64,000 bases of DNA, from the NCBI GenBank assembly GCA_019187405.1, contig JABAQZ010000023.1, positions 124,001 through 188,000 on the forward strand, in the 5' to 3' direction. The stretch's first letter is position 1; each line of letters opens with the position of its first letter. This DNA is from Ignavibacteria bacterium (GTDB lineage: Bacteria > Bacteroidota > Ignavibacteria > Tepidaquicellales > Tepidaquicellaceae). The position numbers and the translations under genes were made by a program. The notes under the pieces were generated by a model. It made no database searches, was not told the DNA's origin, and saw nothing but the letters and a program-made list of their open reading frames with translations. Of the stretch, positions 1,519 through 21,731 are shown piece by piece.

Positions 1519-3222
1519 ATGTTTATTCCGAAGTTGATTACAACTCTGAGAACTTACAACAAAAATCAATTTATTCGTGATTTAACTGCCGGAATAATAG
1601 TTGGAATAGTTGCACTCCCCCTGGCAATTGCATTTGGAATTGCTTCTGGTGTATCGCCGGAAAAAGGAATAATTACTGCAGTTATCGGTGGATTCATAAT
1701 TTCAGCTTTAGGCGGAAGCAAAGTCTCTATTGGCGGTCCAACTGGTGCTTTTATTGTTATTGTATTCGGAATAATTCAGTCTCATGGTATTAACGGTCTA
1801 ATGATTGCCTCGATTCTTGCAGGACTGATCCTTATTGCCATGGGATTAATGAAGCTCGGTACTTTGATTAAATTCATTCCTCTGCCTCTCATTAGCGGAT
1901 TTACTTCAGGTATTGCGCTTATAATTTTTACAACCCAAATAAAAGACTTTCTCGGATTGAAAATTAACAATCTTCCTCCGGATTTTCTCGGCAAACTCCC
2001 TGAATATTTAAAAAATTTTCCTTCTTTAAACTATGATGCTTTAATTGTTTCTCTTGTTACACTTTTGGTGATAATATTATTCCCTTTTATAAATAAGAAA
2101 ATTCCTGGAATATTTGCGGCGCTTGTTATTGGCACCTTGTTTTCAAATTTTCTGGGAATGAATGTTGAAACAATCGGCTCAAAATTCGGCTCAATACAAA
2201 ATTACTTTCCTGCTCCTTCATTTCCGGAAATCACTTATTCGGAAATATATAATCTGATCGGTCCGGCATTTACTATTGCAATACTTGCGGCAATCGAATC
2301 ATTGTTGTGTGCAGTTGTAGCTGACGGAATTATTGGAGGAAGACATCGTTCAAATATGGAACTCATTGCCAACGGAGCGGCAAATGTTGCATCTCCTTTG
2401 TTTGGAGGAATTCCTGTAACCGGAGCAATCGCACGAACTGTTACTAACATAAGGAGCGGCGGTAATACTCCTGTTGCCGGTATTATCCACTCATTTATGT
2501 TGCTTCTCATTATGTTTTTCTTTGGTAACTATGCAGGGATGATACCAATGGCAGTGCTGGCTTCTATTTTAATAGTTGTCTCTTTTAACATGTTTGAATG
2601 GAGGGAGTTTAAGGCTCAATTAAAAATGCCGAAGAGCGATATCCTTGTGTTTCTGAGTACATTTATATTGACAATATTATTTGATCTTACAATTGCTATT
2701 GAAATCGGAATGATAATGTCGGCATTTTTATTTATGAACAGAATGGCTTCAGTAGCAAATATAGGTATGATTTCTCGTGAATTTGACGAAACTTTGGAAC
2801 AGGATGATACAGGCGTCAATTCTATTCAGAATAAAGAAATTCCTAAAGGTGTAATTATTTATGAAATAAACGGTCCATTCTTTTTCGGAGCGGCAAGCAA
2901 ATTCAAAGAAATACTTAGATCAGTTCATTCAAAATACAATATCCTGATACTTCGTCTGAGAAATGTTCCGGCAATTGATGCTACAGGTATCGCAACAATA
3001 GAAGATATTTATGATGAATGCAGAAAAAACAATTCGGTCTTGATATTATCCGGTATGCATGCACAGCCGCTTTTTGCATCAGAGAAATCCGGCTTAATCA
3101 AAAAAATCGGTGACGACAATGTAAGAGGTAACGTAGATGATGCTCTCAACAGAGCAAGGGAAATTCTTGGATTACCTCCAGGAGAAGTAACTGCCGAAAA
3201 AGAAACTTCCGTGGAAAAGTAA
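1519..3222 (+). CDS. SulP-family inorganic anion transporter with STAS domain
   Basis: A 567-residue inner-membrane anion transporter of the SLC26/SulP family (sulfate, bicarbonate or similar). The N-terminal ~400 residues are strongly hydrophobic with the family's early signature: LTAGIIVGIVALPLAIAFGIASG, then GGSKVSIGGPTGAFIVIV. The C-terminal ~110 residues form a cytoplasmic STAS domain with a VPAIDATGIATIEDI core. Length is normal for the family. The start at 1519 fits because the transmembrane signature follows within 25 residues; no clear Shine-Dalgarno is present. Substrate cannot be assigned. The lack of sulfate-assimilation genes nearby leaves bicarbonate or chloride equally possible. 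Confidence 0.93.
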   Translation: MFIPKLITTLRTYNKNQFIRDLTAGIIVGIVALPLAIAFGIASGVSPEKGIITAVIGGFIISALGGSKVSIGGPTGAFIVIVFGIIQSHGINGLMIASILAGLILIAMGLMKLGTLIKFIPLPLISGFTSGIALIIFTTQIKDFLGLKINNLPPDFLGKLPEYLKNFPSLNYDALIVSLVTLLVIILFPFINKKIPGIFAALVIGTLFSNFLGMNVETIGSKFGSIQNYFPAPSFPEITYSEIYNLIGPAFTIAILAAIESLLCAVVADGIIGGRHRSNMELIANGAANVASPLFGGIPVTGAIARTVTNIRSGGNTPVAGIIHSFMLLLIMFFFGNYAGMIPMAVLASILIVVSFNMFEWREFKAQLKMPKSDILVFLSTFILTILFDLTIAIEIGMIMSAFLFMNRMASVANIGMISREFDETLEQDDTGVNSIQNKEIPKGVIIYEINGPFFFGAASKFKEILRSVHSKYNILILRLRNVPAIDATGIATIEDIYDECRKNNSVLILSGMHAQPLFASEKSGLIKKIGDDNVRGNVDDALNRAREILGLPPGEVTAEKETSVEK

Positions 3223-3405
3223 TTTCATTTCTTATCTTTATCTGTTTAAGTCTGGAAGCAAATATATACTAACCTTATTCATCAAAGCATTTTTTTAACA
3301 ATTTCTTTTTATTCATTGCAGATTTATTTTGCTGAATGCAAAATATAAAAAGACTTCGTTGTTTCTTTTGTGTAATAAAAGACTTTTCCAAACTATTGCT
3401 CAAGC

Positions 3406-4875
3406 ATGCTTTTTAATTCAATACACTTTTTAATTTACTTTCCGGTTGTTACAATACTTTATTTTATAATTCCGCATAAATTCAGATGGTTTCTTCTTCT
3501 TACTGCAAGCTGTTATTTCTATATGTCATTTATTCCAGAATACATTCTTATTCTTGCTGTTACAATTATCATAGATTATTTTGCTGGCATATATATTGAA
3601 AACTCTGAAGGCATAAAAAAAAGAAAGTTTCTTGTGATGAGCATTATTTCGCTCATACTCGTTTTGTTTATTTTTAAATACTTTAATTTCTTTAACCACA
3701 GCTTTGCTGAATTATCAGAAGCATTTTATCTGAAATATCCAGTGGAGGATATAGGTCTGATTTTGCCAATCGGCTTGTCCTTTCATACATTCCAGAGTCT
3801 AAGTTACGTAATCGAAGTTTACAGAGGAAATCAGAAAGCCGAAAAAAACTTCGGCATATATTCTCTTTATGTAATGTTTTATCCTCAGCTCGTTGCAGGT
3901 CCAATAGAACGACCGCAGAATCTTCTTCATCAGTTTTATGAAATGCATAAAGTCGATTACAGAAGAATTGCAGACGGACTTAAGCTCATGACCTGGGGAA
4001 TGTTTAAAAAAGTAGTTATAGCAGACAGACTTGCCGTTTTTGTAAATCAGGTATATGACAATCCTTATGAATATCAGGGCATTAGTCTGTTGATAGCAAC
4101 GATTTTTTTTGCGTTTCAGATTTATTGCGACTTTTCCGGATATACCGACATTGCACGCGGAGCTGCTAAGGTGATGGGATTCAGGTTAATGCTTAATTTT
4201 GACAGACCGTATTTTTCAAAATCAATAAGCGAATTCTGGAAACGATGGCATATATCGCTTTCAACTTGGTTTAAGGATTACCTCTACATTCCTCTTGGTG
4301 GCAATAGAGTCTCAATTCCAAGATGGTATCTTAACTTGTTTGTTACATTTCTTGTGAGCGGATTGTGGCACGGAGCTAACTGGACTTTTGTAATCTGGGG
4401 AGCTTTGCACGGTATCTATCTTATCGTCGGTATTATTACTTCAAATTTCAGAGAAAAAGTTACCAATCTCTTTGGATTGAATAATTTACCACGCATTCAG
4501 AAATTACTTAGAATTTTTATCACTTTCTGTCTTGTCTGTTTTTCATGGATTTTTTTCAGAGCACAAGACCTTGACAGCGCGGTATATATAATTAAAAATT
4601 TCTATACAGGGTTTGGCAACGTAACTGAATTATTTACAGAAAATGCAAAGCATGTCTATTACCTCGATAAAAACTTGTTTGATTTTTCATTTGCAATATT
4701 AATGATATTGGTTTTAAAATCTGTCCAGATGCTGCAAAGGAAAGGAGACATGATTCAGATGTTAAACAGACAATCATGGGTGCTTAGATGGCTGATTTAT
4801 TATGCAATAATATTGATAATTTTATTGTTCGGACAGTATAACATAAATCAACAGTTTATTTATTTCCAGTTCTGA
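3406..4875 (+). CDS. MBOAT-family O-acyltransferase (AlgI-like)
   Basis: A 489-residue polytopic membrane protein of the membrane-bound O-acyltransferase family, the type that passes an acyl group across the membrane onto an exported polysaccharide. Visible landmarks are the N-terminal LFNSIHFLIYFP start, a central block PQLVAGPIERPQNLL, SISEFWKRWHISLSTWFKDY, and the catalytic-region block LWHGANWTFVIWGALHG with the conserved histidine at residue 322. The last base of its stop codon is the first base of the next gene's ATG, so the two are translationally coupled. Such pairs (AlgI with AlgJ/AlgX, DltB with DltD) modify alginate, cellulose or teichoic acids. No polysaccharide synthase is close by, so the acceptor is unknown. 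Confidence 0.92.
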   Translation: MLFNSIHFLIYFPVVTILYFIIPHKFRWFLLLTASCYFYMSFIPEYILILAVTIIIDYFAGIYIENSEGIKKRKFLVMSIISLILVLFIFKYFNFFNHSFAELSEAFYLKYPVEDIGLILPIGLSFHTFQSLSYVIEVYRGNQKAEKNFGIYSLYVMFYPQLVAGPIERPQNLLHQFYEMHKVDYRRIADGLKLMTWGMFKKVVIADRLAVFVNQVYDNPYEYQGISLLIATIFFAFQIYCDFSGYTDIARGAAKVMGFRLMLNFDRPYFSKSISEFWKRWHISLSTWFKDYLYIPLGGNRVSIPRWYLNLFVTFLVSGLWHGANWTFVIWGALHGIYLIVGIITSNFREKVTNLFGLNNLPRIQKLLRIFITFCLVCFSWIFFRAQDLDSAVYIIKNFYTGFGNVTELFTENAKHVYYLDKNLFDFSFAILMILVLKSVQMLQRKGDMIQMLNRQSWVLRWLIYYAIILIILLFGQYNINQQFIYFQF

Positions 4876-17765: not shown

Positions 17766-18647
17766 CTATTCTACATTTTGAAGTTGCTCTTTTATCTTCT
17801 CAAGTTCTTCCTTCATTACGGAAACTTTTTGTGAAATATCAGCATCAAGTGATTTTGATGCAATCGTATTTATTTCCCTGTTGATTTCCTGCGTGAGAAA
17901 ATTCAGTCTTCTGCCCGAATATTCCGATGATTTTGCATATTCAACAAAATATTTTGTATGACTTTTCAATCTGATTAATTCCTCTGTAATATCTATTTTA
18001 TCCGACAGCAAAACAATTTCCAGCTCTAATCTTCCTTCATCAATTATTTTCCTGTCACTGATAATGCTCCTGACTTTTGCATTTATTCTATCCTTTTCCG
18101 TTTTCAATCTTTGTTTTGAGATTTTTGAAATTTCGGCAGCTTCTTTATCGATGAATTTTATCCTTTGCATCAAATCATTTTTCAGGCTGATGCCTTCTTT
18201 CGCTTTCATCTTTTTCAAATCGTCAATTGCCTTCAGGAGCAGCGAACATACATACTCGAATTCTTCTTCTTCAACATTCCCTCCGGCTTCAGCTTCAAAT
18301 AAATCCTTAAACACCAGAATATGGTTTAGAGTAATTTCTTCTTTTGTCCCGATTAATTTTTTAATGCTTTTTAATAATTCAAGATAATTTTTTACCGAAG
18401 ATTCGTTTGTAAAAAGAGTTCCAATGTCCCCGCTTCCTGTCTCAACACTTATATTCACATTCAGTTTTCCTCTTGAAATTTTTCCTCTGATCAGCTCTCT
18501 TAATTCAAAATCCCTTAAAGTAAATTGTTTAGGATATTTCATCGAAACATCGCAGTACTTGTTGTTTACCGATCTTATTTCAATGTTATATTTTTTTTTC
18601 TTAAAAGTACCTTCGGATTTTCCGTATCCGGTCATGCTTATTATCAT
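17766..18647 (-). CDS. YicC-family endoribonuclease-like protein
   Basis: 293 residues, typical for YicC. The N-terminus MIISMTGYGKSEG and following IEIRSVNNKYCDVSMKYP are family hallmarks. The C-terminus GRRLNFLTQEINREINTIASKS is the conserved YicC-like block. E. coli YicC has been reported as an endoribonuclease; the role here is carried over from the family. It sits directly before gmk, as in many bacteria. Confidence 0.93.
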   Translation of the reverse strand: MIISMTGYGKSEGTFKKKKYNIEIRSVNNKYCDVSMKYPKQFTLRDFELRELIRGKISRGKLNVNISVETGSGDIGTLFTNESSVKNYLELLKSIKKLIGTKEEITLNHILVFKDLFEAEAGGNVEEEEFEYVCSLLLKAIDDLKKMKAKEGISLKNDLMQRIKFIDKEAAEISKISKQRLKTEKDRINAKVRSIISDRKIIDEGRLELEIVLLSDKIDITEELIRLKSHTKYFVEYAKSSEYSGRRLNFLTQEINREINTIASKSLDADISQKVSVMKEELEKIKEQLQNVE

Positions 18648-18656
18648 AAGTAATTC

Positions 18657-19484
18657 TTATTTGATGACATAATTTCTTATCAATTCTTTTTTAAGGTATT
18701 CAAAAGCCTCTTCAGGTGTATTTGCAAATTTAAAAAGCTTAAGATCTTCTTTTGATATCATCTGAAGTTCGGCTAATTTATCCAAGTCAATAATTTTATC
18801 CCAGAATTCTTTTCCGTAAATTACGACGGTAATTTTTTTATGCAGTTTTTCTGTCTGAACAAGCGTCAATATTTCCATCAATTCATCCAAAGTACCAAAT
18901 CCTCCCGGCATTATAACAAGCGCTTTTGCAAGATAAGCAAACCAGAATTTTCTCATAAAAAAATAATGAAATTCGAAATTTAACTCAGGTGAAATAAATT
19001 TATTCGGATATTGTTCAAACGGAAGAGAAATATTGAGACCCATCGAAAATCCTTTAGCTTTCGCTGCACCTTTGTTTGCAGCTTCCATTATACCCGGTCC
19101 GCCTCCCGAACACACGATAAACTTATTCGGCTTCTTTAAGCTCTTTGCCCATTTTGTCATTAAGTAAGCTAACTGAACTGTATCTTCATAATACTTTGAC
19201 ATTTCCATATTTGCCTCGGCAATTTTCAGATCAATTTCCAATTTCTTATTATTATTTCTCGGGCTTTTCATTTTTTCTTTTAATTCCAAAAGCTTCTGTC
19301 TTGCTTCTTTTTTTGGCAGAATTCTTGCAGAACCAAAAAATACGATAGTATGCTTAATTTTGTATTTTCTGAATCTTTCAAACGGCTCCATGTATTCTGT
19401 CAAAATACGTACATTCCTTCCACCCGGGGAATTCATAAAACTCGAATTTTCATAAGCCTTCGGAGCTTTTTTAACTTTGTCCAT
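18657..19484 (-). CDS. LOG-family protein (TIGR00730-type nucleotide phosphoribohydrolase)
   Basis: 275 residues. The Rossmann-like LOG fold is shown by FFGSARILPK, CSGGGPGIMEAANKGAAKA, SMGLNISLPFEQ and the signature PGGFGTLDELMEILTLVQTEK. LOG proteins hydrolyse nucleoside 5'-monophosphates or cytokinin nucleotides at the N-glycosidic bond; many bacterial members have no known substrate. An N-terminal ~40-residue basic extension precedes the fold. It starts 57 bp after the SDR gene and ends 9 bp before yicC. Confidence 0.9.
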   Translation of the reverse strand: MDKVKKAPKAYENSSFMNSPGGRNVRILTEYMEPFERFRKYKIKHTIVFFGSARILPKKEARQKLLELKEKMKSPRNNNKKLEIDLKIAEANMEMSKYYEDTVQLAYLMTKWAKSLKKPNKFIVCSGGGPGIMEAANKGAAKAKGFSMGLNISLPFEQYPNKFISPELNFEFHYFFMRKFWFAYLAKALVIMPGGFGTLDELMEILTLVQTEKLHKKITVVIYGKEFWDKIIDLDKLAELQMISKEDLKLFKFANTPEEAFEYLKKELIRNYVIK

Positions 19485-19541
19485 TTATTTTTTCTGTTTA
19501 ATTCAATAAATCAAATCAATTTTTTCTAACCTAATTTTTTA

Positions 19542-20285
19542 TTAAAGACTCTTGCCGCCGTCAACTACTATTGTCTGTCCGGTTATGTAACTGTTTTCAA
19601 GCGCAAGATAAAGCAAAATTGAAATTATGTCTTTTGATTTGGCAAATCTTTTCATAGGATATTTATTAACTTCATCAGGATCGACGTTTTCATTTTCATC
19701 GTTGTCAATCAAAATTGTACCGGGAGCAATGGAATTGATAAGTATCTTCGGCGCAAGTTTTTTACCAAGCTGTTTTGTAAGCTTTATCACACCTGCCTTG
19801 GATACTGAATAGGGGATGTATCCCGTCCAGTTTTCAAATCCTCCGAGTGAAGAAATATTTACAATGTGTGAATGAGTAACTTCGCTTTTCAGCATTATGG
19901 TCGCTGCTTCCTGACAGCAGAAGAAAACACTTTTCAGATTTGTATCCAGAAACTTATCATAAATTTTTTCCGAAGTTTCGGTAAATTCTGTTCTGCTGAA
20001 AATTGCGGCATTGTTAACCAACAGGTTAAGCTTTTTATATTTAACCATGACAGTTCTGAATAGTTTTTGAATTTCCTGAACTTTAGTTAAATCACACTTC
20101 ACTGCTGTTATGTTAACGCCGGATTCTTTAATCAAAGAAATCGTTTCTTCAAGAGCTGATTTACTGCTTTCATTATAACCTATGATTATATCAAATCCCT
20201 TTAATGCAAGTGCATGTGCAATTTCTTTACCTAATCTCCTTGCTCCGCCTGTTACAAGAGCAACTTTATTCTCACTTTTTGACAT
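19542..20285 (-). CDS. SDR-family oxidoreductase (pteridine reductase-like or FabG-like)
   Basis: 247 residues, classical short-chain dehydrogenase. The cofactor motif is TGGARRLGKEIA, the NNAA motif is present, and the catalytic residues are Ser (VNISSLGG) and the Tyr-Lys pair in YSVSKAG. The GGARRLG form resembles FolM/pteridine reductase-like SDRs, but substrate cannot be set by eye. The ending YITGQTIVVDGG is typical. It is first in the minus-strand run that leads to dnaB. Confidence 0.85.
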   Translation of the reverse strand: MSKSENKVALVTGGARRLGKEIAHALALKGFDIIIGYNESSKSALEETISLIKESGVNITAVKCDLTKVQEIQKLFRTVMVKYKKLNLLVNNAAIFSRTEFTETSEKIYDKFLDTNLKSVFFCCQEAATIMLKSEVTHSHIVNISSLGGFENWTGYIPYSVSKAGVIKLTKQLGKKLAPKILINSIAPGTILIDNDENENVDPDEVNKYPMKRFAKSKDIISILLYLALENSYITGQTIVVDGGKSL

Positions 20286-20418
20286 TATTCATTAATCAAT
20301 ATTCTTTACAGTTCCCTCAAACTCAGAGAACAATTTTCTTATTTTTTATAAAATTGCTGAATAGCATTTCAAAAAAACATATTTAAAATTAACAATTGTA
20401 AATTAATATTTGAAAAAG

Positions 20419-20492
20419 TGCCCTTGGGATGACTCGAACATCCGGCACGCAGTTTAGGAAACTGCTGCTCTATCCACCTGAGCTACAAGGGC
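20419..20492 (-). tRNA. trnR: tRNA-Arg (anticodon CCT)
   Basis: A 74-nt cloverleaf on the minus strand. The acceptor stem pairs GCCCTTG (20492-20486) with CAAGGGC (20426-20420), with A as discriminator. The anticodon stem GCAGT/ACTGC encloses TTCCTAA, so the anticodon is CCT. The T arm contains GTTCGAGTC. CCA is not encoded. The rest of 20286-20735 shows no gene or convincing structure. Confidence 0.95.
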
Positions 20493-20735: not shown

Positions 20736-21731
20736 TTAAATCAGGAAAGCATAAACAGCTACTAAAACGTATAAGCATGGGAAAATCCATCTGCAATGTT
20801 TGTCAATTTTTTGTGCCAATACGGCATTGCCTCTTGCTGAAATGGAAGATGTGACAATTGATTCAAGTAACGTGAAAAATATCAGCAGGGATGAACCGAT
20901 AATAAAAAGATCCATTCTTGTCATGTATGCAATCTTAGGGAGGTTTGCCGTAACAATAAATCTGTATGCAATCAGCGTCAGCATTGAAGTCGTTGCTATT
21001 GATATCTGTGATGAAGAAAGTGAAGAATCCAGCCAGAAAGCCATCCATGACATCATTATGATGAGAAGTAAAGGAATAATAAAAAGTAAAACGTAATAAC
21101 CGTATTCTCTTTTTACTTTAACTTCAAATACTAGTGAAGATACTTTTTCTGAACTGCCTTCAAAAGTAAAATCTGATTTTTTTAAATTCCATCCTTCAAC
21201 TTTCCAGTCAAGAGCTGAAATTAATTTATTTACGCCGGAACCGGCAGTATCAATCTCGAATTCAATACTATCGTATGATATGCTCATATCAATTAATCTT
21301 AGCTGAAGAGTTTGTTCATCAAAAGGAAAGTCTTTGTAAAACAGGTTTTGTGTAAAGTCGCCATAAATACGCTGGAAAGAAACTACTGTCCCGTCTCCGA
21401 ATATTGACACATGTTCGGAAAATGATTTTGTAATGTTAAGTCTGTTGGTAAATGTTATGGTAGGATCCCAGACTTTATCAAGTCCGGCAATTATATATCC
21501 TTTTCCTTCATGCTTTAATCTCGGATCCTGCCAGCTTACACTTAGTATCATGTCAGCTTTAATAATCTGAGAAGCGGAATTAATTTCGCTAATGTTGTTT
21601 AGATACATAGCGACATACACCTTTGTTGCCCCGTCAGGATTTGGGCTGGAAATTGTATCTTGTGCAATTATTCCAGATGCATACATCAATATTGCTGTAA
21701 TGGATATAAAAAGCGGATTCAATAATTTCAT
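20736..21731 (-). CDS. Prokaryotic pentameric ligand-gated ion channel (GLIC/ELIC-type)
   Basis: 331 residues: signal peptide (about 1-23), extracellular beta-sandwich (about 30-207) and four helices M1-M4. Receptor hallmarks are WQDPRL (67-72), WDPTITFTN (88-96), the loop FPFDEQ (135-140) without Cys-loop cysteines, and REYGYY before M1 with Pro220. M2 (about 241-262) keeps Leu at 9' (L251) and ends at NLPK. The -2'/-1'/0' positions are Ser240-Ser241-Gln242, so neither the glutamate of cation channels nor the PAR of anion channels is present. The M3-M4 loop is short (~16 residues). It is monocistronic, and its ligand is unknown. Confidence 0.93.
   Translation of the reverse strand: MKLLNPLFISITAILMYASGIIAQDTISSPNPDGATKVYVAMYLNNISEINSASQIIKADMILSVSWQDPRLKHEGKGYIIAGLDKVWDPTITFTNRLNITKSFSEHVSIFGDGTVVSFQRIYGDFTQNLFYKDFPFDEQTLQLRLIDMSISYDSIEFEIDTAGSGVNKLISALDWKVEGWNLKKSDFTFEGSSEKVSSLVFEVKVKREYGYYVLLFIIPLLLIIMMSWMAFWLDSSLSSSQISIATTSMLTLIAYRFIVTANLPKIAYMTRMDLFIIGSSLLIFFTLLESIVTSSISARGNAVLAQKIDKHCRWIFPCLYVLVAVYAFLI

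Follow-up and report, generated by a model that had tools for sequence, protein, structure and literature searches.

An uncharged selectivity filter in a bacterial pentameric ligand-gated ion channel from an Ignavibacteria genome

The stretch of DNA analysed here, which we call the window, comprises 64,000 nucleotides of contig JABAQZ010000023.1 of an Ignavibacteria bacterium. One of its reading frames resembles a subunit of a pentameric ligand-gated ion channel (pLGIC) whose selectivity filter carries no charge. If this protein is a member of the family, then we can ask: Is its filter a peculiarity of one protein, which ions would such a channel pass, and what would open it?

Gene, fold and family assignment

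The pLGIC subunit gene lies at 20736–21731 on the minus strand, starts with ATG and codes for 331 amino acids. The first-pass annotation gave these coordinates exactly but left out the strand; the plus-strand frame across the same interval contains many stops. It had proposed a bacterial pLGIC, and it named as possible refutations a profile match outside the family and a predicted structure lacking four channel helices. In the Pfam search the ligand-binding domain PF02931 (E=5e-17, residues 31–209) and the channel domain PF02932 (E=1e-11) both scored above the gathering cut-off, which places the protein inside the pLGIC family. The best PDB sequence matches were GLIC and GLIC chimeras with glycine-receptor or GABA-A channel domains (E down to 5e-38). 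Two ligand-gated channel models of NCBIfam matched at 2e-38 and 8e-37, both below their curated cut-offs, so these models would leave the protein unnamed. Within its own genome of 3.78 Mb the gene is the sole match to the channel family, and this single copy fits a homomer.

The N-terminus is signal peptide-like (residues 1–24, 21660–21731 on the minus strand, as are all features below). Its presumed cleavage point was placed from the AlphaFold2 model, which has a helix at residues 4–18 and then a low-confidence stretch at 19–26, and from the start of the Pfam ligand-binding match at residue 31 of 331. It is followed by a beta-sandwich ligand-binding domain, presumably periplasmic, at residues 25–208 (21108–21659), supported by PF02931 and by the strands in the model. 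Sequence and alignment place the FPFDEQ loop, a Pro loop without cysteines, at residues 135–140 (21312–21329). The membrane part consists of helices M1 (residues 210–233, 21033–21104), M2 (236–263, 20943–21026), M3 (272–299, 20835–20918) and M4 (303–329, 20745–20825), all taken from the predicted model and, for the pore helix M2, from the alignment as well. The monomer model was built from nine natural sequences and is of moderate confidence (pLDDT 76.5, pTM 0.63); it comprises the N-terminal signal-like helix, the beta-sandwich and four helices. Pfam, sequence and model thus agree on the full channel layout that had been read from the letters, including a leucine (Leu251) at M2 9′.

Foldseek and VIA-align returned sTeLIC, GLIC, GABA-A, glycine, GluCl and nicotinic receptors as structural neighbours. 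The top VIA Z values were all 25–26 for cation and anion receptors alike, so the fold is clear and the two classes are not separated by it. Jaiteh et al. list as superfamily hallmarks the [F/Y]PxD loop, the beta-9 Trp, the pre-M1 Arg, the M1 Pro and the M2-M3 Pro (Table 1 in PMC4795631), and all seven corresponding residues are present here (F135, P136, D138, W176, R208, P220, P265). No cysteines flank the FPxD loop or occur elsewhere in the receptor domain, the only two of the protein being Cys313 and Cys319 in M4; other bacterial members likewise lack the Cys-loop pair. The protein has no extra N-terminal domains of the DeCLIC type, its ligand-binding domain starting near residue 31. Profile matches, predicted structure and hallmark residues all identify it as a bacterial pLGIC.

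How does it compare with the channels of known structure? GLIC, the proton-gated channel of Gloeobacter violaceus, matches over its full length (E ~1e-34), has the same fold (Z 25.8, 2.4 A over 300 residues), and shares the short M3-M4 loop and the absence of the Cys-loop cysteines. It differs in having only ~25% identity, a Glu at -2′, an M1-M2 linker two residues shorter, and proton-sensing residues that the window protein does not have. The alkaline-gated bacterial channel sTeLIC ranks first by structure (Z 25.9) and, among bacterial channels, first for the channel domain alone, but its identity is 24%, its M1-M2 linker is likewise shorter by two residues and there is charge in its filter stretch, DYTKRI. 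The animal anion channels (glycine, GABA-A and GluCl receptors) have a linker of equal length and a channel domain that aligns without gaps from M1 to M3; however, they carry Cys-loop cysteines and Pro-Ala-Arg at -2′ to 0′, and identity is ~21–23%. The gapless alignment, proposed earlier for the M2 region, holds with the glycine receptor through M1, M2 and M3, while GLIC requires a two-residue gap in the M1-M2 linker.

The neutral filter and its branch

The alignment assigns Ser240-Ser241-Gln242 (21006–21014) to filter positions -2′ to 0′, in agreement with the Ser-Ser-Gln of the first-pass annotation. The acidic ring at -1′ or -2′ of cation-selective pLGICs is missing, and so is the Pro-Ala-Arg/Lys at -2′ to 0′ of anion-selective Cys-loop receptors; the latter absence speaks to family membership and not to the ions passed. 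None of the nine pore positions aligned (-2′, -1′, 0′, 2′, 6′, 9′, 13′, 16′, 20′) holds an ionisable residue. Surveys of 2004 and 2016 had already recorded that filters differ among bacterial channels and that the animal motifs are often missing from them (PMC549065, PMC4795631). In the later survey 79% of sequences had a basic residue at 0′ (PMC4795631), which makes Gln at 0′ a minority state.

We collected 66 related sequences by profile searches of the family, order, class, phylum and two distant groups, together with a scan of a named collection and a plasmid search. A neutral -2′ to 0′ triplet was found in 12 of the 66, gathered with a search profile built mostly from neutral-filter members, and Gln stands at 0′ in every one of them. 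The triplets seen were SSQ, ASQ, GSQ, TSQ, GAQ or GPQ, that is, a small residue at -2′, Ser, Ala or Pro at -1′ and Gln at 0′. All 12 channels are also neutral at 2′, 6′, 9′, 13′, 16′ and 20′. Three sequences were set aside as fragments or misalignments, and the other usable channels (51/51) have charge in the triplet (DPR, EVR, DSR, SDR, ETQ, DIA and others).

In the IQ-TREE phylogeny of 62 rows the 12 neutral-filter channels form one side of a single branch with support of 97/92, in a tree that has several long-branch rows and weak support at the deep split and was built without ELIC, DeCLIC and full-length eukaryotic channels. The window protein groups at 100/100 with its four close orthologs, which come from four other genomes of the same family (53–56% identity). 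The hosts of the branch are Ignavibacteria, other Bacteroidota, a Burkholderiales genome and its order, and ‘Candidatus Hebobacteria’ (Armatimonadota). The neutral-filter relatives in uncultured Ignavibacteria, Bacteroidales, Burkholderiales and ‘Candidatus Hebobacteria’ share the branch, Gln 0′ and the uncharged pore positions with the window protein, but have 27–58% identity to it and other gene neighbours. Judged by alignment and tree, the neutral filter marks a supported branch of bacterial channels and not one odd protein. A coherent branch with a neutral filter and an invariant Gln at 0′ is not described in the literature that we examined, and the data sets of the surveys may include members of it; our literature search found no paper that pairs Ignavibacteria with ligand-gated ion channels.

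The Asp-Pro-Arg channels of a sister family and of other Bacteroidota belong to the same superfamily, occur in neighbouring lineages and likewise have no Cys loop. They differ in their charged filter, their separate tree branches and an identity of ~22–26% over the best-aligned part. Of the 15 genomes of the sister family f2, which belongs to the same order, 14 carry a member of this other pLGIC subfamily with its Asp-Pro-Arg at -2′ to 0′ (L013, L056, L058-L069). Such near-universal presence, unlike the patchy window channel, suggests a role that matters to those bacteria.

A genome scan with the single protein as query found no relative, nor did a profile-guided scan of viral contigs, and the phage collection gave no match. 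The plasmid collection yielded nothing but distant channels of Azospirillum, whose filter is Asp-Pro-Arg; on two large plasmids (L115 and L116, at ~3001–3867) this pLGIC gene is unannotated in an incomplete plasmid table. A distant pLGIC with Pro-Ala-Arg at -2′ to 0′ was seen in a reverse-strand frame at 1237–2274 of L114 (G1089, from the order of the Burkholderiales genome), but this sequence is a long branch, so the alignment of its triplet may be off.

Ion selection and gating

We propose that the window channel is probably a homopentameric, small-molecule-gated, neutral-filter pLGIC of the inner membrane with weak or anion-leaning charge selection. The protein would be one subunit of an inner-membrane homopentamer, its receptor domain facing the periplasm. 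The ligand, a small molecule, would bind between subunits. Its signal would reach the pore by way of the FPFD loop, R208 and the M2-M3 loop, and M2 would then open past the Leu 9′ girdle. As the coupling residues are intact, ligand-driven opening is likely. In the alignment loop B shows no conserved aromatic residue, and the sequence thus does not reveal where a ligand would bind.

Since the filter lacks a glutamate ring, we expect little charge selection or a preference for anions, and in such weak, anion-leaning selectivity we have moderate confidence. According to Cymes and Grosman (2016), control reportedly passes to other ionised pore side chains when the first-turn charges are removed. 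When the filter glutamate was neutralised, alpha7 and GLIC became anion-selective in simulations, and mutants of 5-HT3A were slightly anion-selective (PMC8011927). Extended to the whole branch, the idea becomes more tentative: these channels of several phyla may conduct anions or fail to discriminate by charge, as a natural and evolutionarily stable condition.

The main evidence against anion-leaning selectivity is the net negative receptor domain, which could favour cations. All 12 branch members have such a domain, with net charge from -2 to -14, and in alpha7 experiments a single filter-glutamate mutation left the cation selectivity unchanged (PMC8011927). It is conceivable, if rather doubtful, that the window protein selects cations, as GLIC and ELIC do, in spite of its neutral filter, with selectivity set by acidic residues of the vestibule and the pore mouths. 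However, the acidic ring at the cytoplasmic mouth, reported in common for cation-selective pLGICs (PMC9897478), is missing here, the M3-M4 linker beside the inner mouth is basic, and the charge of the receptor domain reportedly does not determine charge selectivity (PMC12749857).

Could the channel be opened by protons? GLIC is its closest solved single-species relative by full-length sequence, and the acid response of GLIC depends on E35, with E26, E222, H235, E243 and H277 also affecting proton activation (PMC5760087). In the window protein the equivalents of E26, E35, E222, H235, E243 and H277 are Asn, Gln, Ser, Leu, Thr and Ser, and the E35 equivalent is Gln in 11 of the 12 branch members. 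These positions are non-titratable, so GLIC-type acid gating is unlikely and a chemical ligand likelier. Other acidic residues could sense protons, and yet a proton-gated channel like GLIC strikes us as improbable.

Selection, distribution and significance

Among the four close orthologs dN/dS is ~0.06–0.10 where dS is measurable, synonymous sites being saturated in most pairs that involve the window gene. Conservation is highest in M2-M3 and lowest in the receptor domain. These comparisons show the gene to be under purifying selection.

A profile search found the window channel in five of the 29 genomes of the family. One of the other genomes, G001, keeps an intact copy and has in addition a decayed second copy with several in-frame stops (L117, G001:C418:17751-18406). 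The patchy presence, the broken second copy and the neighbours, which differ between genera, agree with the published picture of unicellular pLGICs as thinly distributed and readily lost (PMC4795631). The same patchiness and broken copy, together with a pore without a charged ring, might suggest a receptor that has ceased to conduct or a gene that is being lost, but this is very improbable given an intact gene in the window, the strongest purifying selection in M2-M3 and an M2 pattern that several phyla share.

Neighbouring genes had been said to give no clue, and this remains so in the window and in the relatives. No recognisable partner gene is common to genus g2, genome G021 and the window; a subtilase beside the channel is common to three genomes of genus g2. 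The channel gene adjoins a block of YicC, LOG-family, SDR and tRNA-Arg(CCT) genes (17766–20492 in the window), at a point that varies between genomes, and the block itself is kept in almost all of the 25 SDR-bearing genomes of the family. Could the gene have been inserted at the tRNA-Arg recently? Beyond the tRNA none of the nine relatives compared matches the window, which indicates a variable boundary and does not demonstrate insertion. The G+C content of the gene equals that of the window (0.352 and 0.350), so composition carries no sign of recent transfer.

In the 2016 survey the biological role was known for no unicellular pLGIC (PMC4795631), and any ligand for the window channel would therefore be informative. 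The choice between cations and anions in pLGICs has been argued largely from filter-charge mutants, whose results differ from one receptor to another and do not agree when simulation is compared with experiment (PMC8011927). A natural branch in which the filter charge is missing, a state kept under selection, offers wild-type proteins for testing this choice. Here an uncultured bacterium has a relative of the receptor channels of nerve cells with no charged residue in its ion-selecting ring.
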